The notes under the pieces are model-generated. The model saw only the letters and a program-made list of their open reading frames with translations. It made no database searches and was not told where the DNA came from. The position numbers were made by a program, and so were the translations under genes. DNA of 64,000 bases from Stropharia rugosoannulata (Eukaryota; Basidiomycota; Agaricomycetes; Agaricales; Strophariaceae), in NCBI GenBank assembly GCA_028532985.1, contig JANCIK010000008.1:372001-436000 (forward strand), read 5' to 3'. Below are positions 1-50,323 of the stretch, piece by piece. Positions within the stretch are counted from its first letter, which is position 1, and every line of letters begins with the position of its first letter.

Positions 1-1775
1 GTGACCAACAACTCCTGGAATAACCGGCGAAATGCTGATTTTTCTCCTTCTCCATATGCGACTGATATCTTGACATCCAAAAGTCCAAGTAGCGAGTACG
101 ATGAGTCCTCCTCTCTGGTGACTTGACGTTGAGATGCCATTTGTAAAATTCGACTAACGGATATGTAATCCATCTGTCCAGAGCGACATTTCCCCAGCTC
201 CTCTGCGGTAATACTGGTCTCAGCGGTGACCAGAGATATAATGGCGCTGTCGCTATCTGTTCCAAGCACTTGCCACTGTCGATTGTAAAAGGATACGTTG
301 TGTGGCGCAAGTAGTTCCTGCAACGTCCATCCACGAGTAAACCAGGAGTCATGTATACCATCCCCAAGAGCTTCTGTCTCAGATAGATAGGTGATGCATA
401 TGCGAGAGCCTCGATACCATTTGTACATTGAGCGTATTGATTCGTCAAGCTCGGAACTGCTCTCCTTGTTAATGCAGACGGAATCAACCCAGCCAAGGGT
501 CATTTTGTATTCATCGGCGGCTACGCGGCAGAAGTTTGTGACTTTCTTCCACCCACGCTCATTCTGAAAGCGGCCGTTCCAGGTGTTAAAGACGACCTCT
601 CCAGGAGACTCGCGGATCCACGTATGAGATAAGATGGCGTAAGATGCGACTTCAGATATTGCTTCCGCTACCAGGTTATTTAATTTGTCGCTCCGATCCA
701 AGTAAGTGAAGCCAATATCGCGTAAGCCAAGGGCTTTGTTCCACTCCTGTTGAAACCCTGGGGAAGTAACATTCTTCTGTACGCGTGGGATCAGGATGCG
801 AAATATATCGTCGCGCCCAATTAACTTGATATTGGATCCGTCCGCATCGAATTCCAGCATCCGGATTGGCATATTATTGTTCACATGTGCGCGAGTGCGA
901 TGCTGGATCATCGATGCCAGCTCAATATCCATAACTGGCAATGGGTTGTGTATTAGTTGAAGCGCGCTTGGAGACCTCTCAGGCTTCTGGCTCAGCGCTA
1001 CAGTATACAGGACATTAGTTTGGTCCCCAGAAGTCCATTCGAAGTGTAACATACATTCTCCAGAACGATCCGTGTCGTCCAAACTGGGTCCACTATTGTT
1101 AGATTTGTTTTCTAAAACTGAACCAGTCAGAATCCCCCGTAACAATCGAGGGCGACTCCTTTACCTAAGGGCGTCTTTGATGCGTTGTCTGCCTGCTGTA
1201 TTGCGGCAAGTACACCTACTCTAACGAAATTGTTTAACGCCGAGATGAGTTTGTTCCCTTCATCACTCGCAGCGGCTATTTTATACCGTAGTCCCGTCAG
1301 AGTCAGAGAATCTTTATGGAAAGTTTACACAATCCCACCTTTTCTTAGCTGGGTCTCTAGGTGGTCTATGGATGATATCAGTCAAATAGCACAAAAAGCA
1401 ATTTTTACGTAGCATTGCGTACCATCAGGGATATGTAGATGTGCTGAGAGAGTAGGCTGCATGAGTTTAAGAATGCAGGACAATATCTGTCCTTCCATTG
1501 GGGCTGTAGAGCCTGTGCTACGATATCCTGGAGTTACTCAGTCAGGAAAATGAACGATTAGTGCCTGATAGAGATAAGGCTAGCGCACCGTCGTCGCCTG
1601 GATTATGGGAGTGTGGATCTCGAGGCAATGGCGTATCCATTTCGTGGCACTTGTTTGGAAAGGTATCTGAAATAACGTGGGCTGGTCTGTAGCTTGTATG
1701 AGAGCGAGATGGTTGTGAATTAGGCCTTGACTCGGCTCCAGAGGAAGCTATATACGGGACCGACACGTGTTTCAA
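1..1775 (-). CDS. HET-domain protein HET-A, 3' end outside the window
   Basis: Partial gene of the local HET family (HET domain proteins trigger fungal self/non-self cell death). It is read on the minus strand. Exons by comparison with the four other copies: 1589-1775, 1423-1527, 1339-1365 (27-nt microexon), 1165-1275, 1055-1111, and 1-997 running off the window. Introns all begin GT and end AG on the coding strand and all are phase 1; the last (998-1054, 57 nt) is a multiple of three and stop-free, so it could also be read through. The HET core is visible (YAILSHTWIRESPGE, then GWVDSVCINKESSSELDESI, then WFTRGWTLQELLAP). The frame is open to the window edge. The ATG at 1775 is the only start in frame for exon 1 upstream of an internal ATG (HEMDTPLP), but the N-terminus is the least conserved part, so the start is uncertain. 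It is the only family member on this strand. Confidence 0.85.
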
Positions 1776-4700
1776 TCACTCTGTTCCTATTCCCGCGAGT
1801 GACACTGCTGACAGCCATGCATTTTATAACGGTATAACATGACAAGTGGTATGATATGTGGTATGATATGTGGTTAAATATATCTATCTTAATCAGATAA
1901 AGGTGGGATAAAGATAAGAAATAGCCCTGGGGTTTAAGGAAAACATAGTGCCACTTTAATATGGCTTATATATAGACAATACGAGGCCGTAATCTCAAAG
2001 GCAGACCACAACCATGACGTACACTTGTGGAAGTCTATCATTGATAGAAAAGAAAGTACAGCCATTAGCACAGAACTTTATCCAGACATATTCTTTGTGT
2101 CTCTACAACTAGGTTCAAGATCATGCATCATGGTTGATTTCATTTCATGGCACAAAGGGACAAATTTGAACACCCACGTCGATTGAACATTGAATATTGA
2201 TCACTGCAGCCCTCTGGTTTGTCTTCCGATGATACGGCGGCGGAAATCCAACATTTTTCTGACTCTGAATCTACATGCGAAGAAAGTGACACAACACACC
2301 AACGACAAGGACTAGACATACATTTGTTATGTTCGGTTTGAGATCTAAGATGCGATATATAATTCATTTGTCCAGAGAGAGAATGCTTCTTTGTGATACG
2401 GATTGCCCGTTCAAGCAGCCTAGCCTATGTCATTGTAACCCATGCTTTGTAGTGTATTAGCGATATATCTACATACCTTCTCTTTTTGATCGTAATTCAC
2501 CTACGTTCAACCTTCTTCAAAAATTCATTCAAACATCTCGCATAATTATCGATAATTCTGCAGGCCAGGGTCCGCTACAAAGTACCGGTTCTCATTATTA
2601 ATGACCTTGCCATTGTTAGCCATTCACCAATTGTATAATTATATAGAGACCATACTCGGCTATACGTCCTTCCTGTCCTATCTGGGCTGTCAGTGAGATT
2701 CACCAACACCATCTAGTCACGTCTAGACCCTTGCACAGGAGGAAGAGACAGCGCATTGGCTGAGATCATGCCCGCGGGATTGCATGGTCAGAGCGCATAT
2801 TACTCATTTCAGACTTCTGTCATCAACAAGAAGCAGGTCAATACATCTGGCGCCGCTGATGGTTGTATGTACACCGAGAGCACTGGTCTTCCTGGCTCCT
2901 AAACGTTTCTCTTGGCTTATTTTTGGTAGTATAACCGAGCACTACCAAAGAGATTTTCTGATAGATCAGGGTACCGTGCCGTCGTCGTTGGATAATAAAT
3001 AATAGACACCTCTAGACTGCTCACAGATGGTCCGAAGCAATGAGTACTTATGTAGTTAACATTGTCAGCTCGCCCCCATGTCAGTCAAGTAGCTTCTCTG
3101 AGCCATGTACTACATATTCCCGTCCACGGGTGCCTCTGAACATGAGTGGTTGTTCGGCTTTTCTGTCCCCCATGCAGACGTGGCATTGATGACCTTCTGT
3201 TGCTTCTTACTACCCAGCAACCTCTACTTCCTCACTATCCTTGACTAAATCACCTTCCTGGGCAATGTAAGAGTGCCACCGGCGTTCTTCTCTCCGCTTC
3301 TCAGTTGCTACAAATAGAGACGCGTGCCGGAGCCTTATTCCCCGTCGCGGATTAGATCAATTCAACGAAGCACTTTATGCCTCCAGCCCTACGATAAGAG
3401 AATAATATGTTGATTATTTCCTTCACTTGCATCTTCGAATGAATCAAGCTGCCTGTCATTGATACCCAGTTGAGAAGTAAATATACCATCTTCTACTGAA
3501 CATCAGACACAGCCGTCAGTAGACCGCCGCTACAAATCCCGGTCGTGGTTGTGCCTCGGCTCGTCTCTGACCACCACAATTTACCATATACGGGAGGTTC
3601 GCTTGCATCGCGTTATCTCCAGCAAACCTATCCTATCCACACGAAATTTAACGCATTGGACACCTTACCCTGCTAGTCGAACTGCTTCAATAGAGTCACG
3701 GTCTAAGGTCATCGAAAGTTAAATGCGGGAAGGTGCATATGACTTGTGTGTATCACCTATATCGGTTTATCGTCTCGCGGGTTCCGATGCCAACGTTAAC
3801 TTGTAGCTTATCTGCTGGCCGCTCCTCATTGGACAGCGAGCAGCTACAGTACACAAATATACAGCAGACGGATGGACCTGTTCCGGTATTTAATTGTTTT
3901 CAGTGTCTTCCGTATGTTAGATACAGTTAAACCGAACACGGAGCGGATCCGTATCGCGCAATACATCGTGTATCGTACACATTTACACTTCCCTTTTCCG
4001 TCTCCATTAGTGAAAGTGGATTCACGACCAACCAACCGCTCCGCTTGCGCCGGCCTCGCCGCACGCACATCCCAACTCGCTCACTGGCTCCAATCATTCA
4101 GCAAGCTTCTATGCAGTGGTGCCTTCCGCGAGGGCGTCTCCGTGCCTTCCTATCCCCCGCGGGCCGGACGCGTCTGACGCCCTTCCAGGCTTCTCTGAAT
4201 TTGTCCCTTCATGTCCTCGCTGATCGTGCCTGCCTGTCATCCGCGTTTGTACGCGGGAGGCCCCGGTGCCTCAGGCTAGAGCCGGGAAATTGACTGCGGA
4301 AGCGTCCCATGCATCAGGAAGACGCGCTGTGGAAGCGCGAAGCGCGAGTCTGCTGAGCGAGACCAGCGCCACGTTTCGCGTTCATATTCGTCGCAGGTCG
4401 GGCAGGCTGGCAGCGCGACCTGCCTGGTGGAGCGAATCGCAATGATGGCGTGGTTCGTTCGCGAATCGCATGGCCAAGATACAGAGTGACTAGATTTTGC
4501 CCTTCAAACAAGCTACCCGATTCCCTTAATGTGCATTATATGGACCCGTATCGGAATGCAGCGGTGTCGCAGTCGGAGTATGCCCGCCCGCAGTGTACAC
4601 GCGTTCACAAGTCCGAGCATGAAAGCGCGTTTATTACCAAAATGAGAAATATGGCGTACATACGTGCAGCCACAGGCTCGCCTCATCCGCCCATCCTTTA

Positions 4701-7700
4701 TCATTGCGCCATTCTGCCACGAGGCGCGTGTTTGAGCGGGACGGGTACGCGGACGGGCGTGGCGCCATAGGGTAATGCCTAATCCTACTTAATTCGGCTT
4801 GGGCTCGCGCCACGCTTGCCCACACAGCGCGGGTTGCGGATAAAGGAGCACATCGCGCTTTATCCCTATTCTCGCGCCTCTTCTTCGGGTAGGGGCTGGC
4901 TGTACATACTGCACACTGCACCGCAGGTTCGCATCGCGTTCCCATATATGCCGGCGGGAAGCTGCACTAGTCCAGGGCCGTCCGCGCCTAAGTGAACGCC
5001 CGCCCAAGCTGTTGGTCCCGTCGTCGGAGTTTCATTTTGCACCCTCGAAATTTTCCGGGTCGGGGCAATGCAGTGTCATACAGTCTGATACAGTACAGCT
5101 TTCGTATCGGTATAATCATCAGCATAGTATTGTCTAGTACCGATAGTGAACACGCCAGCGCACTAGTGGCTCGGTCAAGTAGGCCAAGGCGAGCGTGGCA
5201 CACACAAGTGCAGCCACGGGCGACTGTGTTAACATTTGCTTCGTTTTCGCCGGAACTGCGAAATTATAATGCACCGCATTACATTCTGTCACATTCTGTC
5301 TGAGCTAATGAATCACGCCATATGAATGTTGCTTGCATTACATACATATGTACCACATTTGCAACACCCCGTCAAAACACACCGGAGCACCATCATCAGC
5401 CTCCACTTGGCCTCCACTAGCCTACATAGTCCAGGGCAGCTCTGGCACATGCTAACAACTGCACCGGGTCAGGTCTCAAGCACCAAGTTCCTACCGAGCG
5501 AGGGACCACCCAGTTTGCAGCTGTGACCTCCAACTCTCCCATGCATACTTATGCATACACAGACACACACAAGCTCAAACGGCCCGCATAAAAAGCCCCC
5601 GCTTCACAGATAATCGCTCTCCTGTGATAATATGGGTCCAGTGAATCCCGAAGACAGTAAACGTACCAAGGGGTGCATGTCGGCCGGGCGCAGCTCACGA
5701 TGCACAGTGACTCGCTTCTCAATTGGTTCTGCAGACTCTCGGAGCTCGGGCTGCCGGAACCGGCATAGTCTACCATTCCGGCTCCGGCGGAGAACAGCCC
5801 TCTTAACTCAGACTAGCATATGCGACACGGTAAATGGTTCGTGGAGTCGAAGCAGCATGCATGCAAGCCAGCAAGTCAGTTCGTTCCTGGCACGCAGTCA
5901 AGCGGGCAGCCAGTTCAGGCAGACTCCGACAGGTTTGAGTGACACCCCGTTGGCAGAGGCGATGGAAGACGCGCGTATGCAGGGTATTACTACGTAGAGC
6001 AAGTAAATTAAAGTCGGGTATGTAGGATAGAGCAGAGCAGAGTACGCACCGAATTTGGGCCGATGAAGTTGACAGTCCCGGTGTGTATATTCTTGATTCT
6101 GTACGTGTACCAACGAGCGGGTGCAGCCGTTAGCTCTCTGCTTACCTTTGTGGGCCCGGCGCGACAGGACACCTCACACACATGCGAAAATCATTAATCA
6201 GATATAAATGTGAATGCCAATAAAAGCATATACATAATACATGTACATATTGGTAAGTCTTTTTGTCATTGCCGGCGCCTAAGCCCGCCTAATGCTAGGA
6301 ATCTCCCCCCATTGGATCAAACGCCATTTAGATGTATCATGTATCAGAATTCATCCTTGAGTTACCGTAGATTAATACCCATACAATACTGCCCAATGCT
6401 GAGCATACATGCTGCGCTTGGCGTACGCACGCACGTACAAATGCTTGCAGGCATGCAGGGGACACGGGCACACGCCCTGAGCTGCCCTGAATGTCGCGTG
6501 CGCAGCGGGCGCTCGGCAGGAACTCAGCAGGCCTCAGACATAATATTCCCGCTGAACTTATGTCCTTCCAAGGAATTAGAAACTCGTGTACTACATATGT
6601 AGAAGGCTCGGCGCCTCGCCCACGGCTGCATCCGTTCTAAGAAGAAATGAAGAAAGCAGTATACGCACGCACCCGCGCAAACAGAACTGTGCTTACACCT
6701 CTCTCCCTCTTTGGTCGGCTTCGGGCTGGCAAACGCATATGCGTGGTCCGTTTCCAACGAAGTAATTGCCCTTTCAGAAAAAAATATGTATAATAACCTC
6801 TGCCCTTTTACGCGGCTCGGCAGGGCCTAGGGTCTACCGTCACTGCTTACCGACACCGACAGGGTCTGATCAGCGCGTGAACAATAGGCATCGAACAAGC
6901 CGGGCGCATTATTTTATGTACATATTGCACTGCGCCTGGGAGATCCTGGGAACCGTCAGTCGAAGTTACGAGTGGATCAGCCGTCGGCGGCGGCGGAGCT
7001 TGGGAGAGAGGAAAGTGAAGGAAGAGATATGATGCGGCTATGCGATGACGCTGCGCTAACGGTTTATTAAGGGACCGGTGTCAAGCCCTGCTGCCTGCTG
7101 AGTGTAGCCGGGTCGCGAACTACCTTGTGTGTTTTATTTTACTGCAGACATCGTGTATGCACGGGCCGCAGTGAAAGACGGACGGAAGGACATACAGACA
7201 GGCTAGTCAAGTTAGCGAGCAGGCTGTCGAGCAGCCCGTTCGTTTTTTTTAAAAAAAACTCGTGAGTATAGTACAGCAAACCTCATAGAATGGGAGATAG
7301 ACGGTGCCGCTGGTGCAATCACTTCGCGATACACAAGTAGCATTGAAAAACCTAGAGCAGTCCGCACATGCATCAGTCACCAGTCAGATAGGTGGGTTAG
7401 ATGGGTTGAATAGGTAAATCACAGGCCGGGGTATTAGAGTAAAATAAGGAGTAAAATAAGGATGGACACAGGTACATCATACGTGCCGTGTGTCTTCAGA
7501 GTAGATAGAACTAGACTATCACTATTCATAGATCAAGCCGTATGTACTGAGCACTCCCCTGCTCTAAACCATATGGTGACCGTATGCAAGTTAATACTCC
7601 AGATAACCGCTATTCTTAGCCTAGCAGAGGCACCGCGAAGAAAGCCCGGCTGGGAGGGAGATAGGTTCCGTGGCCCATCCGTGCGCACTATAACCATCTG

Positions 7701-10700
7701 ACCCAGAGCGCGTGGAATGGGTACAAGTATAGCTTGAACCTGATCAGCGGTGGGGTGGGGTGGGGATTACCCATCCGCGCCCCCCGCACGGACCTCAATA
7801 TAGACCACAGGTACGACATCGATGTACATAGACTGGATCAGATCCAGGGTAGGAAGTTGGAACCGTATGCGTGCGCTCTGCGTTATTCCTGTTTGTATCT
7901 TTAATACGCTATTCAAATATTCATATCTGTATCTCTCTACGCATGCGGTGTTCTATTTCTGTATGTGTGCGTGCGTGCGTGCGTGAATGCGCATGTGGGT
8001 TGAGCCTGTTCTATTCCGTTCCATTGTACTCTATCATATTCTATTCTATGCACATACGCATAGTATTCTATGTATGCACTTATTAAGTCTATTTCGATTC
8101 CAGGGTGCCACTGCTCACTGCTCAGTCTATAGTCTTGCGCCCACTACGCATAGTGTTGCATACTATTTATGCCAGAGGTTATACTATACGCGGAGTCGGC
8201 TTGCATGGTGCGGACCACTGCTTCGTGATGAGGCCCGCGAGGGGGACGACGTCATCCGGTTTGTTTCGGTAACGAATCAGGTACGCATGCGTAGAGGAAG
8301 CGGAGAAACAGCGAGGCTTCAGCGCACCGCGGGTGCGCGGGATAATGAATTGGAACATTAAATTATCCGTTGAGTCATTAAATCAGGCGTTGAGACAAAT
8401 TGGATGAGCCGTTGGGACATTGAATGGGCGGGGAAAGCGAAGGGCCCGAAATTATATTCAGGGCGAGGGAGCGGAACTGTGCGTGGAAGAGCTCAACGCT
8501 CAGGGGAACGAAGCACGATCTAGAAGGGAAAAGAAGGGAGTTTACGAAGGCGTTGATATGGGGAGCACCAAAGGCCGGTTGGGCAGACAAGGCAGGGGCA
8601 GGGGCAAGAAGGGGAAAGAAAGAAGGGGTACGAAGTCGAGATTCGGGAGGGCGGAAGGCAGAAGTTAGGAATCAGGGGTGTTGTAAGGGGAAGGCCGAGA
8701 AGAAGCAACGCCCTGCCCCGCTCACGATATCCCCGGTACGCGCTACCCAGCGCACCCCAGGCCGGGAGGGCGCGCGCCGGGTCTGGCTCGTACCGGATGA
8801 GGACCGCGGATGGTATGGATGTACCAGAAGGTACCACGTGAAGCCAGGAGTCCGCTGGGTGCCCTGGTCCATACATACTGCTCGATCGAGTCTCTCCATC
8901 CCCTGGACCGTGAGTGGGTGCGTATGTAGGTGGATCGATGGGTGGTTGCAGCGCTGGCCAGGGTTATTGTATACATTCTATTCAACCTTATCTGACTCGG
9001 ACGCGCGCCTATTGTCGCGTCGTATACCGTGCATACACCAATCTCTTTTGTCGTGTTGTATGTTATTCAAGTTCCATCATGGGCGGGGTCTACTCTATGA
9101 CGGGGTAGATAATTGTCATGCTCTATACATAATGCATTATACCGGGCCTATTGTCGCGTTCCGTGGAAGTTAATTGTCTGTCGCGTCGCGTGGTATTGTA
9201 CATACATCTGTTCTGTATACACTACATTACAGTAGAATACAGTGTTGATTCAACCCCCTTCGCATCCGTGGCCAGGACAGATGATATCATCCCCGCAGAG
9301 TCACGGACGGCCACCACCACGGACGACAAATCTTCATGCATGTACATACACAATTAACTAGCGCTGGCTCACTCACTCAGCATCCTGAAAGTTATTGTGC
9401 TGGACCGGCGGGGGTAGGCTCCTGGCTACATACCATTGACCCGTCCCAGCGCGCGCGTGCGAGCTGCGTACGTAACATTCATAGTATGCATACGCGAGGC
9501 TAGCACCGCACCGCATTGCGGTTCGGTTCGCCCTGTGGTAGCCTATGGGCAGCGGCGCGTACGCGTACGCGTTCCTTACACCGCACCGACCGTCTCTTGC
9601 ACCGGACAAGTTAGTACTGACCGTTACCACCACCACCAGCACTGCATCACGTCGCTTTAGCCTGCTTCATCTTTTTGATTTTTAATTTTTAATTCACCCA
9701 GGGACCAGCAGAGGTGAGGACTCATCATTAATCATTAATCAGGCCTCAGGCCTAAGGATGCACCTCGCATGGACTCGTACCGGTCGCTTCTTCACTGAAG
9801 TCTGAGGCCCGGTGAGACTCAACCCGCGCGCTTTCCAGGCACGCCGTTGTTCAGTCTTCTTTAGTCTTCTTTACTCCTCTCTAGTTTTCTCTACATACTC
9901 TTCTCTACGTACGTATGTACATACATGCATAGTGTCGGCCGGTCATCCACCTCCAGCCTGCAGCCTCCGCTGCATATCCAGCCGTACTATCAATGACCGC
10001 TGGTGACCGCTGGTGGATCTGCGATCTATGACCATCCACTAGTCGCCGGAGGTGGGTGGCCGGTGGTGGTAGTTTTATTGTACTAGTGGCCAGCATGTAT
10101 CAATATCAGCACCAGCATCAGTATCCGTATCAATATCGACATCACAATATCAGCACCAGTGTCAGCATAGGCCAACACCACAGGAATGCAGGCACAGTGT
10201 GCCTCAGAATAAAGATTAGGCCAGTCGCCACGGTGCTTGGTGGTGGTGCTTGGTGTTACATATGTAGGTTCTGGTGGTTCTGGTGGTTCTGGTGGCTCAG
10301 GCCGGATTAATTGAAATCAGGTGCATAATCATTATGCATTAACGTTTTATTAGAAATTGGTTATTCAATGGTTATTGGTTATTGATCGAACGAACAAATA
10401 ATCGAATTATTCTTACACATGGTTACTAGAAATAATAGTTTCCATGTACGCATTACGATTACACGCGTCCGTGTGGAGGTCTATCCATAGATCCGTCCAT
10501 CGGCAAAATGGAGGAGGATTGTGGAGGACTGGAGGACTGGAGGACTGTGGGGGACCAGGCAAGTCCGCCGTGTATTATTTTTATGATGGCCTATTATGTT
10601 GTATGTGCCTATTATCTATCCCCTATTATTCCTATTATATTATACCTACCTACCATATGATCATACCTATTATGCGCCTCTAGAGGCCTGTGGTGCCCTG

Positions 10701-11460
10701 TGGGTATATATATAACCCGGGTGGGTGGGTGGGTGTCTTTATCGCTCAAGTGAAAGCTCCTGCCTTCCCCTCTGTTAGTACGTGCCCTCTCTGGTACTTC
10801 CTATTCTGAGTTCTTACCAGTTCTTACCCGTAGTCCAAGCACGTAAGCGAACAAAGTAACCTATAAACCAACCAACCCAACCAACCAACCACCCAGCCAA
10901 CAAAGCAACCCACCCAACCAACCGAACAAAGCAACCCAAGCGAACTAGTCCCAGCTCACCCGAACTATCACCCGACCGAAACGAACGAATTGATTGATAG
11001 CGATAACCCGAGAATACACCCGGCGTTCCCACCCCTTGTCACTTGAGTCTTGCATATATCATATCATAAGTATATATCAGGCCGGTTATATATCAGCCCG
11101 TTTACTTATATATCCGACCGTTTATATATCAGACCGTTTACTTATATATCAGGCCCTTCCTTGTCACCGTCACTGACCCATCCACCGCTTCGCTTCGTAT
11201 TGCTTCGCGTGCCTTGCCCAGGCTCGAGCATACTTAACCTACCCGCACCGCCGCACCCTTATCCCCACCCACCCCACCTACTCCACTTCCCTCGACTCTC
11301 CATTCCCTTACTTTTTTCGTTTCGTTCGTCCCGTCCCTTTCTGTTGACGACGACGACGACGTGTAAACGCTAGCTAGCTTAAGAGCTACCATCACCGTCG
11401 ACGCTACCACCACCACCACCACCAACACCACCACTACCACCGACATAAAGACAAACAACG
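1776..11460. other. long gene-poor interval with simple repeats
   Basis: No coding gene can be supported in these 9.7 kb. Open frames are short, overlap on both strands and carry no recognisable domain. Seen here: a short tandem of TGGTATGATATG near 1843-1880; a run of T followed by A forming a small palindrome near 7242-7260; GGGGTGGGG runs near 7750; hexamer-type ATCAGCACC/ATCAATATC repeats near 10085-10180; TTCTGGTGG triplet repeats near 10268-10300; AACCAACC repeats at about 10860-10935. The 249-codon frame at 8424-9173 has a biased, low-complexity composition with no homology I recognise. Spliced genes with very short exons cannot be excluded. Confidence 0.5.
11055..11160. repeat. AT-rich tandem repeat upstream of the peptide-precursor gene
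   Basis: About five imperfect copies of a unit resembling TATATATCAGGCCGTTTACT lie in tandem roughly 300-400 bases upstream of the start codon of the secreted repeat-peptide gene. The units alternate TATATATC with [A/C]G[A/C]CCGTTTA. They might be promoter elements or simply a minisatellite. Confidence 0.6.
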
Positions 11461-12522
11461 ATGCGCATCGCAACCGTACTAGCAGCCGCCTCCGTCCTCC
11501 TCGCGTCCGTGCACGCCGCCCCCGCCCCCGCGCCCGTACCCGCACCCGTACGTCCTTTCCGTGGTATAACGTATGGTATGGATAGACGCTGACCGTGTTC
11601 CGTTCTCTTTCTCCCTCCCCTCTTCTTCGTCTTATCATTATCATCCCTCCACGCCTTATCCTCTCGTCACGCCCACGATGACGACTCCCGCTACGCCCGC
11701 GCCCACGACGATGCCCGTGCCTACACCCGCGCCCTGCTTACCGCCGCCCCGTTCCGATACTGATACGGAAACTGATCCCGATGTCGATGTCGATGTCGAT
11801 GCCATTCCGCCCGGACCCGGACCCGGACCCAACCCCACTCCTACCCATACTGTCATGTCCACTCGTCACTCACCCCCGTCGCCCGCCCCCGTCGCCCGCA
11901 TCGCTTGCCGCCGCCGCTCGCCGCCCCGCTCGCTCACGACGCCGCCGACCCACAGAACGCCGACGCGGCGCCCGGGATGCCGGTACAAGGCTGGAAGAGA
12001 GAAGCCGATGCCGAGGCTGGGTATCCCAGTCAAGGATGGAAGCGCGAGGCTGGGTACCCCAACCAGGGATGGAAGCGCGAGGCTGGGTATCCTAACCAAG
12101 GATGGAAGAGAGAGGCTGTGGCGGGGATGCCGACGCAGGGGTGGAAGAGGGAGGCGGAGGCGGAGGCTGAAGCAGAGGCGGGGTACCCTAACCAAGGGTG
12201 GAAGCGCGAGGCGGAGGCGGAGGCGGGGTACCCTAACCAGGGATGGAAGCGCGGTACGCCCGTGCGGGACTGGAAGCGCGAGGCGGGGATGCCGACGCAG
12301 GGATGGAAACGCGAGGCGGGATATCCTAACCAGGGGTGGAAGCGCGAGGCGGAGGCTGAGGCTGAGGCTGAGGCTGGTATGCCGACGCAGGGATGGAAGC
12401 GCGAAGCGGAGGCTGGGTACCCCAGCCAAGGGTGGAAGCGCGAGGCAGAAGCGGGATACCCGAACCAGGGATGGAAACGCGAGGCTGAAGCGGAGGCGGG
12501 ATACCCTAACCAGGGGTGGTAG
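11461..12522 (+). CDS. secreted Kex2-processed repeat-peptide precursor (alpha-factor-like layout)
   Basis: Two exons: 11461-11547 and 11956-12522, joined in phase 0, predicted 217 residues. Exon 1 encodes a signal peptide (MRIATVLAAASVLLASVHA, then Ala/Pro-rich). Exon 2 encodes 14 tandem units ending in QGW-KR: seven GYPNQGW, two GYPSQGW, three GMPTQGW, one GMPVQGW and one degenerate GTPVRDW. Each KR is a Kex2-type dibasic site; all units but the first and the degenerate one begin with 1-5 acidic-Ala dipeptides (EA, once EADAEA, once EAVA), the substrate of Ste13-type dipeptidyl aminopeptidases. The last copy ends directly at the stop codon, as in alpha-factor precursors. The start follows an A/C-rich leader (ACAAACAACG-ATG) typical of fungal 5' UTRs. 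Function is not known: pheromone-like signal, KEP-type secreted peptide, or a ustiloxin-type RiPP precursor are all possible, but no UstYa-like tailoring gene or receptor is visible nearby. Confidence 0.85.
11548..11955 (+). other. 408-nt intron of the peptide-precursor gene
   Basis: Exon 1 runs into an in-frame TGA at 11590 and must be spliced. The donor is GTACGT at 11548. From 11585 to 11953 there is not a single AG; the first one is the acceptor CCCACAG at 11949-11955, which restores the exon 2 frame exactly. At 408 nt it is much longer than the 50-66 nt introns of the HET genes. Confidence 0.7.
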
Positions 12523-15500
12523 GCGCCCAACGCCACCACTACCACCTCTAGCGCCCGAGCTGTCCATTAATCCCCCCGACCTCCTTCCTCATTCCCGCCC
12601 CTAGACACCTTAATAACCCCCTTGGCCTCGTCACCCCTCATCATCTCGCCCTCTGCACGCCCACGCCCTCCCTCACCTCACCACCGTACCACACCGCTCG
12701 AAGACCAGCGCCGCGCCGCGCGCCGCCGACGGCACCATCTGGCATGCATGCATGCATGCGTCATGTCTCATGTTGTCTCACGTCCCATGCATCATAATTG
12801 CACGCATCCATGCATCACGCCTGTCACAGCCGCCCGCGCCCGCGCGTCCATGTGCATTGATGACTTGATCCCAGCCTAACTCAAAAACGTCGCGTGCGCA
12901 CCCACGCCCTGTCACCCCCGCCCCGCCTTCTTCGCCTCTCTCCATCTTCTCCACCCCCATCCGCCTTCTCTGCCCCCCTCGCCCCGCTTGACCTGTCCAC
13001 CCCTCTCCCACTCCCTCCCTTCCCATGTCCACATGCTCCAGGCATCCTGACGTTCCACCATACACCTAACGTTATCTCGTCCATCATCCCGGTCCATCAT
13101 CACCGTCCATCATCACCGTCCATCATCAACACAACACGGCCCCGTCGGCCCCGGCCCGGCTTGGCTTTATCACCTCTTTGTCTCTGCCCGGTTTATCCTT
13201 ATTGTAGCCCCACCACATCCCACGTTCCTTCCTTTCCTATTCCGTTTCCTTAACAGACCAGACCAGGCCAAGCTAGCTTACTTGTGCAGATTAATACCCC
13301 CCCGCCTGCCCGCCCGTCAGTGCGTAGCCTTATCGTATCCGTATTCCGTACTTCGTGTTTCCGTGTTCTAGTGCCTGTTCATTATTCTGCATGTTCGTCT
13401 CCGTGTCCGTGTTCATTCTCGGTCCACCGTACTCTCACTGACCCCATTCGTAGCCTTACTCCGCCATTACCGCGCCCTACGGCGCTGTCTTACTTACTCA
13501 CCCATTACCCCCCGCCCTCTTTTTTTTTTCTTTTCGTTTACATACTGAGTACATCATACAATGTTGACTATTTGACAATTGTTGACGATTCGTTTTGTCC
13601 GTATATGTTCGGGATTCGAATACTTATACATGATTCAGTTCAATACTTCAGAGTGCTTCGTCCGAGCCTGTGTCCCGTGCCCGAGCCCTGGTCCGAGTCC
13701 GCGCCCCGACCTTGCAAGTGCACGCGCAGTGCGCACTGCCGACCGCTCGCCTGCCCAGTGCCCAGTGCTCGCGCTTGTGCCTGTATGGTACGTACGTGCT
13801 TGCCTGGTTCCCCTGGTCCCTCCTGGTTTACCGTTGCGATTACCCGCACCACGCCCGCACGACGCCCGCGCCCGACCGACCGACCGCACGCAGCCGCACG
13901 CACGCACACGTTTATTTTTCGGTCTGCGTGACGGATTGCGTTTATGACGTATGAGCGGCGCGTGATGATCGATGACGTCTTCTTCCCGACTCCCGAGTCT
14001 CTTGCCGTCCGTCCGTCCCTCGGCCTGTCCGTCCTTTGGTCTGTCCGACTGGAGTGTCGAGTGTCGAGTCTCTCATCTCATCCCTCACTCCTTCGCTCAC
14101 TCCTATGCTCCCTCACTCCTTCACTCCTTCGCTCCCTCGCTCCTTTGCTCACTCCTCTCGCCTCTCCCTCCCTCATCTCTCACCTCTCAATTTCACGGCT
14201 CCTTATCCACTCGTGCTACTCACGTACACAATCAACTACCCTTGGATGGCTGCCTGAACTTTCTGAAATGTCTGAACTTGCCTGAACTGCCTGAACTGCC
14301 TGAACTTTCTGAACTTTCTGAACTTTCTGAACTGCCTGAACTGTCTGACCTTGCAAGATGGCGGCATTGGCTGTACTTACCAGATGGCAGCATCAGCTGG
14401 CTGGCTGGATGGATGGTTTGTATTGCGCTCTGGCGCACTCTACCACGTAGCTCTACCCTCCACCCTCTACCCTCTACCCGCTCTGCGCCGCTGCCTGCCT
14501 GTTACTCGTAGGTCTGTTACTCGTAGGTTATTCAAGGCCGGCTCGGCTCTTACCGGCTCTCGAGCACATTCTTACTGGGTCTGTCTCTTCCTTCCTCGCT
14601 CGCTCCCTCACTCTGTCATCGCGACTCGCAACGACTTCAAGTACATACATAATGCTAGTAATACAAAGTCTCAATCTTCAAGCTTCAACACCAGACCAAG
14701 AGTTCAACGCCAACGCCAGCCCAATTCAAAGGCCTCCATCGATCCGAACTTGAAGCCTGACGTGCCATCCGCACACGCATGTTTATTTACATTAAAGTTG
14801 GAGTAAGAGAATTGACTGTCCTTGACTCGATGTCTGCTTGTAGAGTAGAATACATTGACTGTGTTTAAATATTTTAATTTCGCCTTTAATTTTTTCTTGA
14901 CTCTGCTATAATTTCACCCTGACTTGCTCATGTCCGGGCCGTCGGTATGGGTATCGGTACGTTGCGGAGTAAGAGTACAAGTAAATGCGGGGACTCGGAG
15001 TAGACGTACCCACTTAAAAACACACGGCGCTCGGCGCGTCGCTCAGTCGGTATCGTTCCAAAGCGGGCGTGGTGTATGTAGCATTCACCTTTACTTTACT
15101 TTACTTTACTTCTTCTGTAGTTCCGTGCCACGTCCCGCCTGCAGCTGAGCGCTGAGAGCCTGCACAGGCGCACGGGCACATGCGTGTCGTGTGGTTATGT
15201 ATTGGGCCTTGGCCCGGCGCTTCGGGTTTCCCAGCGCGTCATTCAATACCAATGACAACAACAATTCGCGGACACGGCGGGCGGCGTATTTACGTTATCC
15301 AGTACCTACAAGCACGCGCTCGTGCTGTCCCATACATACAACGTAACGAATACATACAGTACAGCCGAGACAATAGAGAAGGGCTTACGTTGGCGCTAGT
15401 GGTGGGCAGGTGCACGCACCGTGGCTTTGCATTGTATTGTATTGTATTGCGCTTCTGGAATCTGGACTGTACAGGCAGTGCGGATAGGTTAGGTATGTAC

Positions 15501-16813: not shown

Positions 16814-19109
16814 ATGGATACGTCATGGCCTGACGTTGCACAATGTCGTAATCCAGGCGATGGTACGCAGGACTTATCTCCCCGAGTCCCGTCCTACACC
16901 GCTACTTGTTCTTCCTCCTGACCGGACATATTTAGGAGATCGTGAAACAAGCTCTACGGGGTCACTTGAAGGGCAGCTACTGTCATGCATTCTAAAGCTC
17001 ATGCGGCCTACAATCTCAGAGCATCTAGATATGTCTGATGGTATGCAATGACGCATAAAAACTCCGTTTTGAGCTACTAAAGCTGATGCTGTCCATAGAC
17101 CGTGTTGAAGCCCAGTTACAAAAAGGTGGACAGTTTAAACTTACCCAAAAGGTTTTTTGTTCTGACGGGACTTCGATGGGAAATAGTTGCCGCAAGCGAT
17201 GAAGGGAACAGACTCATCTTTGCGTTGAACGGTTTCATCAAGGCGGGTGTGACCGCTGCAATTCAGCGGACGGACAAAGCGCCGGCGAGAATATCGCCTT
17301 CAGGTAAAATCAATCCGCAATTGACACGAAGGATTTTTATTTTTATTTATTGTAGAAGATAATATGACGAATACAGGACCCAGTTTGGATGGCACAGATT
17401 GTTTTGACAAACGTAGTTACTTCGACGGGTCATCTGAGGCTAGAGCTAATGCACTGCACGCTATAGAACCGGACGAGAAATCTACGGCAGCGCAAACAAA
17501 TGCGGTTCAACCACATATTCCCGTGGAAGTTCAGCCTACTGAACTGGAATCGATGGTTCAGCGACTCACTCGAGCTCATGTATTCAATAACATGCCAATC
17601 CGGATGCTGGAATTCGATGCGAATGGATCCAATATCAAGCTCATTGGCCATGATGCCATGTTCCGCATCCTGATGATACGCGTACAGAAAGAAATCACTT
17701 CTCTGGAGTTTCAGCAGACTTGGAAGAAAGCTCTTGGCTTACGGGACTTGAATGTCATTTGGTATAGGCACAGGTCAAACAAAATGCAGGAAGTAGTGGC
17801 AACAGCTATATCTAAAGTATCTTCTTATGCCATCATGTCTCATACATGGATTAGAGAATCTCCCGGGGACGTTGTCTTCAAGTCCTGGAACAGCCGCACT
17901 TCTAATCCTCGCGGGTGGGAAAAAGTCAAAAACTTCTGCTGCGTTGCCGCCAACAAACACAAGATGACACTTGGCTGGATGGATACTATCTGCATCAACA
18001 AGGAAAGCAGCTCCGAGCTCGATGAATCAATACGTTCAATGTATAAATGGTATCGAGAGTCTACCATATGCATCACATACCTGACTGAGACGGAATCTCT
18101 CGGGGACGGCACACACGACTCCTGGTTTACTCGTGGGTGGACTTTGCAGGAACTACTTGCACCAAACGAGATGGTCTTTTACAATCGCCACTGGAAGTTA
18201 CTTGGAACAGATAAAGACAGCGCAATTATATCATTGGTCACTGCTGAGACGACTATTACTTCAAAGGAGATAGAGAAGTGTCGTTCCGGCCATAAAGATC
18301 ACATACCCATTAGCCGCATTTTACAAATGGCATCTCAACGTCAAGTCACCAGACAGGAGGACTCTTCGTACTCATTACTTGGACTCTTAGATGTCAATAT
18401 ATCGGTCGCATATGGAGAAGGAGAAAAATCAGCATTTCGCCGGTTATTCCAAGAGTTGTTGGTTACCAGGAAGCATGTAATCGACCTCTTCAATCGGCAA
18501 TATTACTGGGACGACAGCCTTGTTCCTTCATCTTTGAAGAGATACTCTTCGAGGCTGTCCATCTTGCCCGAGGAATATGAGCGGAGTTTGCATGACTATC
18601 AACCTCCTGAGCCCATCACGCTGACCCATCTTGGTGTACGGTGCCAATGGCTTCTTTTCCCGTCACTCGCAGTTAAAAAGGGCACTTTGAATGACCTATA
18701 CACTCCTAAAGGACAGTACTCTGCTCGAATTTTATCGAACGTGATATTGACAAATGGGGACGAACTGCATCTCGTCTATAATCTTCTTGACGACAGACTA
18801 TACGGCGGCCAGAGCGAGTACATTCATTCCCTCAGTGGCGTGTTACCCATTTCCATTAGACAGCCTACATATGCAGTGCCAACGTTCACTCTCAAGGGAG
18901 ATGTCTTGATACTGGCCAGATTTTCAATGGGAATTGCTTTTTACACACCAGATCGGCCTGGAGCAGTTCACACCAGCAGCAATATACAACTAATGTCGGT
19001 AGACCGTCCGGATTGGTTTGAACTGGTAAATTCCACTAATGGTTCTTGGGAAATACCTATGCGAGATTTAGAATGTCATGGAATGCAACTTGTTACTCTT
19101 TATCTATAA
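16814..19109 (+). CDS. HET-domain protein HET-B
   Basis: Six exons inferred from the family pattern: 16814-16862, 16936-17040, 17099-17125, 17187-17303, 17356-17412, 17467-19109; predicted 665 residues. Every intron starts GT, ends AG and is phase 1. N-terminal part (about 120 residues): SLEGQLLSCILKLMRP... and AASDEGNRLIFALNGFIKAG, conserved in all copies. Middle: MPIRMLEFDANGSNIKLIG. HET domain about residues 230-345, with SYAIMSHTWIRESPGD, GWMDTICINKESSSELDES and WFTRGWTLQELLAP. C-terminal region of about 300 residues with no domain I can name. The last intron has an unusual donor (GTAGTT) and is a multiple of three, so retention would not break the frame. The codon aligned with the start of HET-E is ATA here, so I start at the next in-frame ATG; the true start may differ. 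Confidence 0.85.
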
Positions 19110-19744: not shown

Positions 19745-20290
19745 TCTCCCTGAATACTTCCTCAGTCCACGAAAATGTAGTCAATTATGAGTCCTTTAAT
19801 TGTCTCCCTGTTTCCGCTTGTAAAATAGCTCGTACACGCAAACAGCTACCACCTTTTAAGAATACAATATGATCGTCCAATTGGTTAATATTTAATGCAC
19901 ATTGCAGAACTGCGGCCTAGCTCCGTTAGTTGTTCAAGGGGCTTGATCAGGTATTATCGTGGATGGACAACCAGCGCACTGTGGTTAAATGTCATATCCT
20001 GTCTTCGGCTAAAATTATTTCTGTAGTTGGGATGGCAGCGTGCATAGCTATTTTATTTCAACTTCGCCGTGGGAGTCCATGGAAGCCATACCCGGCGGTC
20101 GGCAGGTACGAGATTTGTCCACGGCAATTCACAATGTCTGAATGGGTTTGAATTGGCAACCAGACAGCAAGTCTATTCCGATCACTCAGTCCCCCGCAGC
20201 ACAGTGACAGAGGTACAGCACGTGTCAGCCGCATGTTCGGCGCATTAAGTACTCGAACAATCACGAATGCAAGGCCTTTTCGCCCACCAT
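19745..20290 (+). repeat. orphan copy of the HET 5' flanking region
   Basis: Homologous to the 5' flank of HET-D (37691-38210) over most of its length and in part to that of HET-C (28047-28170). It ends abruptly at CGCCCACCAT, where element 1 begins; the HET gene that should follow is absent. It is the remnant of a further HET unit, truncated at the transposon boundary. Confidence 0.85.
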
Positions 20291-22352
20291 TATGGCGGTC
20301 CATGTGTACTTTTATTCCGCGCAATTTTTTGAGCAATCTTGTGCCCCGCAGAAAAGTTGAATGCCCCGCGGAAATTATAAACACCCCGCAGAAAATTGAA
20401 GTGCCCCGCAGAAGTTGAAATTCCGCGCGCGCAGAAATTCGATGTCCGAAATCTGCGCGGGGTGAGTTTTTTGAGTCAAATACATGTTTTTTGTCCAGAA
20501 GCATGCATAGAAATGCCCGCGCGGAATTTTTACACTGCGCGCAGAAATTTAATGCAAGGTGTGTGTTGCGCGCGCAGAAATTGAGAAATTGACTTGTACT
20601 CACATTTTTGACGTGCCGACGTGCCGGAGCTGGGATTTGATGATGTAAGTGATACGGTCGGCATCACGGAGCTTGGCATTTCGTACTTTAAAAACACCGT
20701 GGAAACTTGAAAGCAAGGGTAAGGTTGACATTAATGGCGCCCGTCTACTTGCCATTGAAAATCTTGTAATCGTTTTGCTTATTTCAAAGATATACCAGAC
20801 CCTTTAATGTGTGAATTATCTACCTAAGTCAGGTATAACATCTGGTTGAGTGGTTGTAGTTGGGTTATATTCAAATGCACCCGAGGATGCCAATCTTTAC
20901 TATTACTAAACCAAGGTAAAAAGAACATTTTGCAGAGAAAGTACATAGGGATTTATTAATCTTATACATTAGCTTGCTGTAAGCTATAAGGAGGGGATGA
21001 CAATTGTATAGTAGGCTCTCCACTCGCTGCCAGGAGGCCAATTTCACACGCATTTTCAGAGTCCGATGTATGAGCTCCGTGATGCCGACTAGTGTTGCCG
21101 CCACAGTGCAGTCACTGTGAAGTCACTGTGACTGCACTGTGATATTTCGAACTCCGCCACACTTCACAGCGTAATGCAGTCGCTGTGAAGCACTGTGAAG
21201 TCACCGCTACATCCTCGCTCTTATCTTCGCTTGATCACCACTTATCTGCGTCCACCCCACCTACCTTGCGTCTACATTCTACTTTCTGAATCCTGGCCTT
21301 ATTTATTGTCTGAATCCTCGGCATGGCTGATCTCATAGGAGCTTGACGTTGTTGTGACCTAGAATGGCTCAAGACCGCTCATTCACTTTGTTAGTTTTGT
21401 TTCAATGATCAATGAGTTTTCTCGTCCCCAAATTTGTGAGGTTATATAAGAAGAGAGGAAGGATCAGTTACGCTATAATGAGTCATTATCTATATCAAAC
21501 TTTCCTGCAGTCTGCAATGGCTGCAGACAGCCTTCATCTGTGCAGTTGTGCTTGTTAGATAGTTACCCGGCTTTGGCCACCAATCCACTTTGGCCAAGAC
21601 CTCAACCTCAGGTCCTCAGATATCTACTCAACATCAAACCCCTTGACGCCCGAGTCCTCAAAACCTCAATATGGTCTACCAGCTTCTACCAGCTCAATTG
21701 GTTCCTCTTGCCGCTCTTTGCCCGCCCTCAGCCGCCCTCTCCTGTTTCGTTCCAACCCCCGAGGGCACGTCACGTGAATACTTCAATTTAAGTAACGGTT
21801 AGGCGGCGGAGGTTCAAAATCAACTCAGAATGGTTAAATTCACTGCTTGGTAATCGCTTTGTAATCGTTCCCTTTATCCTCACAGTACTGTGAAGTGCAC
21901 TGTGATGACTGTGAAGTGGCTCACAGTCAATCAAAAATCACTTCACTGCGGCTGCACTGCACTGTGGCGGCAACACTAATGCCGACCGTATCACTTACAT
22001 CATCAAATCCCAGCTCCGGCACGTCGGCACGTCAAAAATGTGAGTACAAGTCAATTTCTCAATTTCTGCGCGCGCAACACACACCTTGCATTAAATTTCT
22101 GCGCGCAGTGTAAAAATTCCGCGCGGGCATTTCTATGCATGCTTCTGGACAAAAAACATGTATTTGACTCAAAAAACTCACCCCGCGCAGATTTCGGACA
22201 TCGAATTTCTGCGCGCGCGGAATTTCAACTTCTGCGGGGCACTTCAATTTTCTGCGGGGTGTTTATAATTTCCGCGGGGCATTCAACTTTTCTGCGGGGC
22301 ACAAGATTGCTCAAAAAATTGCGCGGAATAAAAGTACACATGGACCGCCATA
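20291..22352. mobile_element. long-TIR DNA element 1 (2062 bp) with hAT-like insertion
   Basis: Inverted repeat of 383 bp: left arm 20291-20673; right arm 21073-21089 plus 21987-22352, split by a later insertion. The arms look identical by eye. Termini TATGGCGGTCC; TA at both ends could be a TA target duplication or part of the element. Each arm carries several subterminal units of the type GCCCCGCAGAAAxTTGAA, changing inward to GCGCGCAGAAATT. No transposase is visible, so it is non-autonomous. The 181- and 252-codon frames crossing the arms are by-products of the inverted repeat. The family's superfamily is not clear to me. Confidence 0.85.
21090..21978. mobile_element. non-autonomous hAT-like element (889 bp)
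   Basis: 23-bp perfect terminal inverted repeats beginning TAGTGTTGCCGCCACAGTGC. The 8-bp target duplication ATGCCGAC is at 21082-21089 and 21979-21986. TAG-type ends and an 8-bp duplication are the hallmark of hAT elements. Both subterminal regions are dense in CACTGTGA and its complement, the usual form of hAT transposase binding sites. No transposase frame. It sits in the right arm of element 1 and so is younger than that arm. Confidence 0.9.
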
Positions 22353-22407
22353 CCGCCATAGCGTGCATACCTATTTTGTTTCAACTTCGCCGTGCGAGCC
22401 CATGGAA
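22353..22407 (+). repeat. short fragment of HET 5' flank between two elements
   Basis: GCGTGCATACCTATTTTG and following bases match the HET-D flank near 37957-38000. The rest of this flank resumes at 28047, after element 2. The fragment shows that element 2 split the 5' flank of HET-C, with loss of roughly 75 bases relative to the other copies. Confidence 0.75.
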
Positions 22408-22924
22408 TATGGCGGTCCATTTGCACTTTTATTCCGACATTGATTCATTAAGTATTTTTGTGGTTTTGTATTGTATGAAAACTATTTTCCGATGTCCGCA
22501 ACTTAAAAAACTGCACGCACACTTTAACTTAACATGCGCGCAACTGAAAAAAGTGTGCGCACATATAAATTTACCATGTGCGCACAAAAAAGTAGGCAGC
22601 GCATCTATGAGTTTCATGTACACACCTCTAAAAAATGATCTGCAACCCATCAGTGCTGCGCGCACAATTGCAAAATGTATGACTGGTGTAAAATCTAAGC
22701 GCACCTCAATTTTTGGCCCGGATATTGGCAGCTCGGCTGCTACGCTCGCCGACTCCGGCATGGCCATAACAGCCGGCTGCCTAGTGTCAAACTTCTAGCT
22801 TTCCTTGCCCATGGCTACTCCCTGGCAGTAGCACAGGTTGGTGTAAACATATCCCACTTTTACTGAACCATAGCTTTAGGTGAAGATGCTTGGTATTTGT
22901 CCTGACTCCTGCACCCTGAATACC

Positions 22925-23134
22925 TATTGAGCGCAGTGTATAAAAGATAGAATAGAATTAATTTATGGAGGCTCTACGAGCTCCCTTATATATGTAGTGT
23001 ACATACTTCGAGAACTATCTACAATGTACTCATGTAGAATGAAAGGTATATGACTAATTGTATTTGTAAGTCAGATGAGTAAGTCAAAGTAATTATGACT
23101 TGAGGTGCTGAATATTCGAGCACCTACTCCAACA
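22925..23134 (-). repeat. 3' LTR of the Copia element
   Basis: 210 bp, identical by eye to 27408-27617. It is preceded on the coding strand by the polypurine tract. Confidence 0.95.
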
Positions 23135-26100: not shown

Positions 26101-27322
26101 TGATCGTGTTATTTTTGTCCTTCAATATACACAGTCCATCTTTGAATTCCACGTGTCCTTTTGCATCGTCTAGTCGACTGACTGACAGTAAACAATTTGG
26201 CGCCTCGGGAACGTGCAGTACATCTCGCAACTGATGGCGTTTGATGGTTCCGTTTACTGACATGTGCACGATCACTGTGCCTCGTCCTTGCGCCTTTGCT
26301 GAGCCTGGACCTATACCCGAAATTGTGGAGTTTGAGAGTGGATAATATTCTGTGAATGCGTCTCGAGCCGTGCAAATATGTGATGTGGTTCCGGAGTCCA
26401 GTAGCCAGTCATACTTTGAGATCTCCTTTGTAGTGTATCCCATGTACGAGAATTCATTGAGTCCCGAATTTGCGTCCGTTTCCTTTGCTTGATGTGCACG
26501 GTTCCCACGACTAGGTTTGCTTCGTCCCTTTGGACCCTGACCTTCCTTTCCTCCACCTTTAGCCCAACACTCCGTGGATATATGCCCCTTCTTGTGGCAA
26601 TTATAGCATTCCTTTTCGCTATTTTCCTTGGCCTTGAATCTCCCTGAAGATTTATATCCTCTGGCTTGTAGTGATGCACTTGTATTATCATTAGTTCTCC
26701 CTTTACGACGTCGATCTTCCTCCAATAAAATTGCTATGAGCTCGTGTGATTTTAGAACGGGTTTATTCCCACTTGATCCGAGATAAGATGAAGTGTAGTT
26801 GTCCCACGACTCTGGAAGTGAAGTGATGAGGATCATGACAAAGTCTTCATCCGAAACTATGTTGTCCATGATGTGTAGCTCCTCCTGTAAGCGCCGTAAA
26901 CCTGATACATGCTCTACCATGTCGAATCCCTCCTCGGCTGTAGCTCTGTATAATGCCCTTCGAGTGGCAAGAATTCCCAATCTGCCTTTAGATTCCTTGA
27001 CTGTGGTAAGCTGTTCCCACATCTGCCGTGCTGTAGTTGCGCCGCTGATGTGTATCATTTCCGCATCTCCAATTGACAGTTCTATTCTGGTACGTGTCTT
27101 GGCGTCGCCATCGCGCCATCTCTTCTGTGCCGCCAACTCTTCCGTAGTTGGTGTCTTCTCATCTGCTGATCCTGGCATCTTCGAGTCCGCCTCGATATAT
27201 TGATCCAGTCCAAGGTCACGAAGTACCGCAAGCATGCGTCGCTTCCACGGCATCCAATTAGTGGCCTTCAGTAATTCCATTCGGTAGCCTCCCGATGTGT
27301 ACGTAGTCTCGTCCGCCATCAC
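23124..27322 (-). pseudogene. Copia gag-pol polyprotein with one frameshift
   Basis: The first frame (27322-24524, 932 residues) holds in order: Gag; a CCHC zinc knuckle at residues 239-252 (CYNCHKKGHISTEC); the aspartic protease at about 309 (LLDSGTTSHIC); integrase with the HHCC region near 450, acidic residues in SDVWGP and RFDNG and the glutamate in NGVAERFNR; and the start of reverse transcriptase (VGCRWVYAKKRDE). The second frame (24503-23124) continues at once with the rest of reverse transcriptase (LLVWVDDF active site) and RNase H (DAD, SEAEY, SDNQAA). The two frames differ by one base at about 24525-24535, where one base of a G run appears to be missing. This could be a real mutation or a homopolymer sequencing error. 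Everything else looks functional, and the LTRs are identical, so the element is young. Confidence 0.92.
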
Positions 27323-49700: not shown

Positions 49701-50323
49701 ATCATGTCCTCAAGTGGTTTAGCTGGTTTGTCGTCTTTTGCCAGTTTGTGGGAGTTGGTAGTTTTAGCGCGTATCCATGTTTCCGCTTCTGGGTGTTCAA
49801 GCGCCGTGGTTTGGATGACTGTTTCCAGTAGCTCCCATTTGTTGCCAGTTTGTCCGTTGTCCGTTGCCGTAGTTGTCTCATCCTGTCTCCAGGAAATTTC
49901 CCCCGTAACCCAATTGATGTCTGGGTTGTGTTCATTAAGCCAGGGGTGTCCTAGAATTATGTCCTGCCGTCCTAGTCCAGTAACAAAGAATTCCTCTGTG
50001 AAAGTACGTCCTAAAGCTATAAATGTTAGTACCACTTTGTGCCTGATGGTCCCTCGTTTGTTCAGCATTCCGTCCACGTTCTGTACTTTGAGGGGTTGTT
50101 CCAATTTGGTCGTTTCAATTTTATTCTTTTGCACGTAGTTTTGATTGATAAACGATCCTTTTGCTCCGCAGTCGACGAGGGCATTGTTTTCAATGATTTT
50201 GTCACTCATACTTTCGATAGGGAATTTTATGGGTAAAGTTGTGTATTTTCGTTCCCTATCTACTTGTACATTGTGAATCAAAAAATCCGGAGAAACATAC
50301 ATTGAACTATTTCTCCTTTTCAA
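46715..50323 (-). pseudogene. Gypsy pol (PR-RT-RH-IN-chromodomain) with four in-frame TGA
   Basis: The protease motif is ALVDCGAKG at about residue 51 (family usual is D-S/T-G; Cys here is odd). Reverse transcriptase carries YVIIYMDDIL at about 394-403; RNase H follows (TIESDASKYASGAVL, DRELLAI, SDHKNL); integrase has the H-H-C-C finger (YHDNLTAGH...CKGCGTC) and acidic triad (AWDLITDLP, TSDRDPRF, TVERFNQE). The C-terminal chromodomain is YEVERIMHHRRKGKRTEYLVRW with WEPPANLKN. TGA codons at 48893-48895, 48215-48217, 47891-47893 and 47345-47347 fall where relatives have Arg (three) or Trp (one); each is a single transition. There are no frameshifts across about 1200 codons. The natural stop is at 46715. 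Confidence 0.9.

Follow-up and report, generated by a model that had tools for sequence, protein, structure and literature searches.

We analysed a 64,000-nucleotide stretch of the Stropharia rugosoannulata genome (assembly GCA_028532985.1, contig JANCIK010000008.1, positions 372,001 to 436,000), called the window here. We observed that its forward strand carries, at 11461–12522, a gene for a repeat-containing peptide precursor. The contig with the window is referred to as C8, and other contigs are numbered likewise. The gene has the following parts.

11461–11547, plus strand: exon 1 (translation), 29 codons, predicted signal peptide MRIATVLAAASVLLASVHA followed by APAPAPVPAP
11548–11955, plus strand: predicted phase-0 intron, GTACGT...CCCACAG, 408 bases
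11956–12522, plus strand: exon 2, with 14 heptapeptide cores, Lys-Arg sites, Xaa-Ala/Xaa-Pro spacers and TAG
11974–11994, plus strand: core 1, GMPVQGW, with eight XA/XP dipeptides and no Kex2 site between it and the predicted signal-peptide end
12019–12246, plus strand: cores 2–7, GYPSQGW, GYPNQGW, GYPNQGW, GMPTQGW, GYPNQGW, GYPNQGW
12253–12273, plus strand: core 8, GTPVRDW, without EA spacer; the same peptide occurs in a paralogue on C3
12286–12519, plus strand: cores 9–14, GMPTQGW, GYPNQGW, GMPTQGW, GYPSQGW, GYPNQGW, GYPNQGW, the last abutting the stop

Translation from the ATG at 11461 to the TAG at 12520–12522 with the GTACGT donor yields 217 residues, in agreement with the start, stop and protein length of a first-pass annotation of this DNA. 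The intron at 11548–11955 is deduced from the sequence, and its length counts against the model. Five GT donors are in frame with the acceptor at 11955. The donor consensus GTANGT is matched best at 11548, which also keeps the hydrophobic start whole; splicing from 11536 instead would cost VPAP and leave 213 aa. The last AG before the acceptor is at 11584 and the next only at 11954. The 368 bases from 11586 to 11953 thus hold no AG, compared to 9.5 expected from base composition, and they form the longest AG-free run on either strand of the 64-kb window. An acceptor at 11954–11955 fits this gap, and an internal exon within 11586–11953 was ruled out because the stretch has no AG acceptor. The N-terminus is hydrophobic on inspection of the translation alone, and signal-peptide cleavage is predicted after residue 19 from its composition and the −3/−1 rule. 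The overlapping frames 11573–12604 (plus strand) and 11866–12567 (minus strand) were taken as by-products of the GC-rich repeat.

The most frequent core is GYPNQGW (7 of 14), followed by GMPTQGW (3), GYPSQGW (2), GMPVQGW (1) and GTPVRDW (1). The cores are of three kinds, GYP[NS]QGW (9), GMP[TV]QGW (4) and GTPVRDW (1), and positions 2 and 4 are coupled: all nine Tyr cores carry Asn or Ser, and all four Met cores carry Thr or Val. The first-pass annotation had described 14 copies of G-[YM]-P-x-Q-G-W and a mixed set of peptides. The number of cores and the Y/M and N/S/T/V variants are as described, but the motif fits only 13 of the 14, since core 8, which had not been set apart, reads GTPVRDW. 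The last core was correctly placed at the stop, as the protein ends in ...GYPNQGW. All 13 KR sites lie between cores, each directly behind Trp.

We observed Ala or Pro as the second residue of all 37 dipeptides, 29 of them in spacers and 8 in the leader. The leader is the 16 residues past the predicted signal-peptide end, and the count hinges on cleavage after residue 19. All spacers are even in length, from zero to five dipeptides, and EA follows 12 of the 13 KR sites, the exception being the site before core 8. This register of XA/XP dipeptides is what the predicted Kex2/Ste13 trimming requires. All 14 cores start with Gly-Xaa-Pro, and Pro at position 3 is a stop for DPPIV-type enzymes. In the proposed maturation, the signal peptide would direct the precursor into the secretory pathway, Kex2 protease would cut behind each Lys-Arg, a Kex1-type carboxypeptidase would take off the basic residues, and a Ste13/DPPIV-type dipeptidyl aminopeptidase would remove the EA, DA and VA dipeptides and halt at Gly-Xaa-Pro. 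The products would be linear secreted heptapeptides with a Trp end. Given the unbroken dipeptide register, release of core 1 could take signal peptidase, a Ste13-type enzyme and a single Kex2 cut behind it, and that of the other cores Kex2 and Ste13. We infer transcription, splicing, cleavage and secretion of the precursor.

The precursor gene is surrounded by a cluster of HET-domain genes spanning ~73 kb. Six of these were recognised by Pfam match and the one at 3–1145 by sequence likeness only. The cluster and the retrotransposon frames of the window are as follows.

3–1145, minus strand: HET gene
17364–19109: HET gene
28832–30535: HET gene
38837–40555: HET gene
58796–60100: HET gene
L060:5836–7584, beyond the window: HET gene
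L061:3120–4790, beyond the window: HET gene
23124–27322 and 46715–51525, minus strand: Copia-type and Ty3/Gypsy-type retrotransposon frames

A search with the HET protein at 17364–19106 gave 3059 matches, and the organisms named among the 120 listed were Hypholoma or Pholiota, at 34–49% identity. On these matches, the host would probably be placed among the agarics close to Strophariaceae. The Pfam scan for retrotransposons was run on frames other than 23124–24503 and 46715–47305. The stretches 20058–20603 (minus strand) and 22040–22798 (plus strand) are inverted copies encoding the same ~104-residue start, perhaps the arms of a mobile element.

The 47.97-Mb assembly, searched in six frames (E ≤ 0.001), returned three places: the window gene, C3:1435839–1436075 and C8:441543–441641. 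The second is an intact gene, unlinked to the window gene. With a predicted phase-0 intron of 63 bases removed, its product has 127 residues and a putative signal peptide, and like the window gene it consists of a first exon, a phase-0 intron and an exon with the repeats. We are less sure of this splicing than of that of the window gene, because the frame is open with or without the intron (148 aa unspliced). The cores of this paralogue are GSSVQDW (2), EAPTEDW (7) and GTPVRDW (1), with RR between them. The two GTPVRDW sequences differ at five bases, all silent and none a replacement, where 17 of the 63 possible single changes in these codons are silent. We therefore rejected the idea that core 8 is a degenerate copy. 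Odd-looking in the window gene, GTPVRDW is actually the core common to both genes. When the C3 protein was the query (E ≤ 0.1), the four matches obtained all fell within the two intact genes. We also rejected the HET genes as functional partners, since a scan of nine frames near the C3 paralogue, picked from its list of open frames, turned up no HET gene. An avidin-family protein is encoded ~15 kb from this paralogue (L067:3757–4260, minus strand).

The third place lies on C8, 57 kb downstream of the window gene, and its frame is broken. The repeats are matched by five pieces of 48–55 bases at 80–88% and by other pieces at 70–93%, and the 3′ flank by 47 bases at 83%. By this likeness, C8:441543–441641 is a decayed duplicate of the precursor gene. 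The decayed copy (L003:1380–1600, C8:441.4–441.6 kb) is ~630 bases downstream of a HET gene, and the gene and its HET neighbour may have been duplicated as a block.

We compared the repeat with 500 order-2 Markov simulations of the locus, in which the maximum number of W-[KR]-R sites per open frame was 0 in 174, 1 in 312 and 2 in 14, against 13 observed. In the rest of the window (1–11400 and 12601–64000), any open frame holds at most one. Across all seven codons of the 13 canonical cores, pS was 0.71 and pN 0.145. The same cores gave pS 0.70 and pN 0.00 at positions 1, 3, 5, 6 and 7, and pS 0.78 and pN 0.47 at positions 2 and 4. These values are descriptive and carry no test, because repeats in one gene exchange sequence and the copies are not independent. 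The contrast is the pattern to be expected if purifying selection had acted on the peptide. A repeat that arose by chance or is decaying, and makes no product, would suit a stretch rich in HET genes and retrotransposons, with a broken copy 57 kb away. However, frame, register and cores are intact across 14 repeats despite the divergence at silent sites, and the simulations reach two sites rather than 13, so that we regard this explanation as extremely improbable. The precursor gene is real and well preserved.

Based on these data, we assign the gene to the secreted KEPs (Kex2-processed repeat proteins) of the Trp-ended kind with a STE13 signature, and propose that Kex2/Ste13 maturation of the precursor yields linear heptapeptides (probability roughly 0.8). 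The repeated near-identical motifs (14 cores) with 13 dibasic KR sites between them are those of a KEP. As expected of a KEP with a STE13 signature, XA/XP dipeptides follow the Kex2 sites and the genome has genes of the Kex2 and Ste13 families. At the family level, the genome gave three matches to P_proprotein (PF01483, Kex2-type) and one DPPIV_N locus (PF00930, Ste13-type); three kex2 genes, the same number, have been reported for agaricomycetes (PMC9769878). The alpha-factor-style layout and KEP class proposed by the first-pass annotation are borne out by cores, KR sites and dipeptide register. Its remark that a Kex2/Ste13-style signal would be unusual in a basidiomycete is not supported, as basidiomycete STE13 KEPs were described in 2019 (PMC6339444) and Trp-ended ones, with peptides found by mass spectrometry in mushrooms, in 2022 (PMC9769878).

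Searches for relatives, each scoring the ~8000 best candidates, gave few, which counts against our reading. A single query against 5.8 billion proteins returned five matches at E ≤ 0.001, and a profile of five sequences returned ten at E ≤ 0.01, so that the proteome search suggested by the first-pass annotation did find relatives, in small number. P0002 contains four copies of GSPVQGW alongside EADAAP, EADANP and EAEAAP spacers, and its gene model appears to be wrong towards the end. In P0001 (Termitomyces sp. Mi166), the cores GTPGW, GPPGW and GSPGW come with EP/EA spacers. In P0011 (Stygiomarasmius scandens), the VFRSADW cores are preceded by EDEEKR-type spacers, with XA/XP dipeptides only before the last core. 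P0004, one of the five matches, was dropped as low-complexity and devoid of Kex2 sites, and P0009 from Zasmidium, which we take to be an ascomycete, was dropped as weak (26% identity).

The wider class is well documented. Umemura reported 7878 KEPs in 1345 of 1461 strains (PMC7329392), and in 2019 Le Marquer et al. recognised clear STE13 signatures among the KEPs of basidiomycetes, which they called candidate hormones outside mating (PMC6339444). Vogt et al. used Coprinopsis KEP 490115 as a BLAST query and obtained many basidiomycete KEPs with STE13 motifs and a C-terminal Trp. When a Coprinopsis KEP was expressed in Pichia, Kex2 sites and XA/XP dipeptides were removed to leave Trp-ended heptapeptides, and in 2022 KEP peptides were detected by mass spectrometry in mushroom fruiting bodies, and Trp-ended ones in Pleurotus and Lentinula (PMC9769878). 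GYPNQGW, GMPTQGW, GTPVRDW and GSPVQGW are absent from the literature texts covered; the gene may be listed in figures or supplements, which lie outside those texts.

An alpha-type mating pheromone sensed by a Ste2-like receptor would match the precursor layout, which is of the ascomycete alpha-factor type. We compared the locus with the mating genes. STE3 gave 22 exon-level matches, grouped by hand into seven genes, of which five lie at C10:604797–639169, one on C1 and one on C8; the STE3-like genes outside the C10 cluster are at C1:1515439–1516537 and C8:1962057–1963159. PF08015 (CaaX pheromone) gave five places at E ≤ 1 on C10 and C3, four of them above the cut-off and the C3 place below it. 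The best-scoring place, L053, is inside the STE3 cluster. Three CaaX precursors on C10 end in CVIS (L054), CIIS (L055) and CVIA (L056); L054 and L056 are inside the cluster and L055 is ~1.5 Mb away on the same contig. The window protein ends in ...GYPNQGW and has no CaaX C-terminus. STE2 (PF02116) had no match in the genome, although the control genomes were equally silent. The protein had no Pfam match to MF_alpha or MF_alpha_N by hmmscan to E 0.1, where only DUF6084 was listed (E 0.0097, below the cut-off). Mating pheromones of basidiomycetes are described as prenylated and a-type (PMC6339444, PMC9769878). With five of seven STE3 groups and three CaaX precursors on C10 and the window gene on C8, a mating role is unlikely, and we give an alpha-type pheromone hardly any weight.

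The genome contains UstYa-family genes, and Tyr and Trp occur together in 9 of the 14 cores, as would suit a ustiloxin-type (dikaritin) RiPP, with its Tyr/Trp cores closed into rings by UstYa-family oxidases. A STE13 signature leaves room for cyclisation, because a DUF3328 (UstYa) gene was found near 17 of 76 homologues of STE13-signature basidiomycete KEPs (PMC7329392). However, among 22 exon-level UstYa matches, a lower bound, the closest on C8 is ~279 kb from the precursor gene, compared to an average of 3.09 genes from the KEP gene in that survey, and the closest on C3 is ~497 kb from the paralogue. In addition, 5 of the 14 cores have no Tyr, and the precursors of toxic cyclic tetrapeptides and epichloecyclins are reported to lack a STE13 signature (PMC6339444). 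Cyclisation is unlikely given the missing Tyr and the distance to the nearest UstYa match, and we consider a dikaritin very improbable. The genome check proposed by the first-pass annotation gave no STE2 match, as in the control genomes, and 22 UstYa matches, none near the gene, and its doubt about a ustiloxin role was supported within these lower-bound counts.

Returning to a KEP with linear, Trp-ended products, the peptides would most likely serve as a secreted non-mating signal between cells of the fungus, a signalling step whose chance we put at about even. By their sequence, the peptides may be directed at the fungus itself or at another organism. With precursor and maturation unchanged, the products could instead be Rep1-like surface peptides or outward effectors or defences, a reading we find possible but rather unlikely. 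KEP roles are varied, and six Coprinopsis kep knockouts had no phenotype. Since these looked normal in axenic culture, their authors favour roles in biotic interactions (PMC9769878), and we counted this against self-signalling. On the other side, Rep1 is reported without a STE13 signature (PMC6339444), and the Coprinopsis peptides tested had no antibacterial activity (PMC9769878). In our judgement, peptides of seven residues that are neutral and keep a Trp at their end also look neither amphipathic nor repellent.

While viewing the neighbours of the C3 paralogue, we observed an OPT transporter gene at C3:1446603–1448574 (L070:471–2586), ~10.4 kb away with several genes in between. It was not predicted beforehand. 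It is the strongest exon-level OPT match, a rank affected by exon length. By our own estimate for 48 Mb, the chance of an OPT gene within 12 kb of either precursor is ~1–2%, and with 14 OPT loci in the genome (hand grouping) a chance neighbour is quite possible. No OPT gene was found near the window gene, the closest on C8 being ~1.5 Mb away. Qsp1 of Cryptococcus is reported to act through the predicted OPT protein Opt1 (PMC7537855). We tentatively suggest, as a long shot, that the C8 and C3 precursors release the identical GTPVRDW plus private peptides as a second, unlipidated signalling channel beside STE3/CaaX. By analogy with Qsp1, GTPVRDW might then be imported by an OPT transporter or perceived by an unrecognised receptor.

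Mushrooms have alpha-factor-like precursors though their own mating pheromones are lipidated CaaX peptides. The 2022 study found no function for mushroom KEP products (PMC9769878), and titles and abstract openings yielded no further study of basidiomycete KEP function. The window gene is a clean case, with an unbroken register, a strong contrast between silent and replacement differences and one peptide identical in two unlinked genes, which makes GTPVRDW, GYPNQGW and GMPTQGW concrete, cheap probes of what such precursors do.

Like MFalpha1 of yeast and Ppg1-type precursors, the window gene has Kex2 sites, EA dipeptides in variable number and repeated cores. It differs in having no MF_alpha or MF_alpha_N match, in a host with STE3 and CaaX genes, and in cores that are unrelated on inspection. 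With dikaritin precursors (ustiloxin, phomopsin, asperipin-2a) it shares a signal peptide, here a predicted one, and Kex2-separated repeats, but it has STE13 dipeptides, no nearby UstYa match and no Tyr in 5 of 14 cores. Qsp1 is a linear, Trp-ended single peptide without a repeat. Like the predicted products here, Qsp1 of Cryptococcus neoformans is a secreted, protease-matured short basidiomycete peptide, but it has 11 residues, is matured outside the cell by Pqp1 and acts via Opt1 (PMC7537855). Rep1 of Ustilago maydis is likewise a secreted, Kex2-processed repeat protein of a basidiomycete; in contrast to the window gene, it is reported without a STE13 signature (PMC6339444), and its peptides form amyloid-like fibrils (PMC9769878). 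The Trp-ended STE13 KEPs of Agaricomycetes, such as Coprinopsis cinerea 490115 (QYKAPSW, QMRPPSW) and Pleurotus 1091723 (SGVAADW), share with the window gene dibasic sites, a signal peptide, in the window gene a predicted one, XA/XP dipeptides before the core and linear cores of 7–8 residues ending in Trp (PMC9769878). Compared to these, the window gene has the core G-x-P-x-[QR]-[GD]-W, three core kinds per precursor and one core common to an unlinked paralogue, features for which we claim no uniqueness among KEPs. In conclusion, the window gene belongs to a kind of precursor known since 2019.
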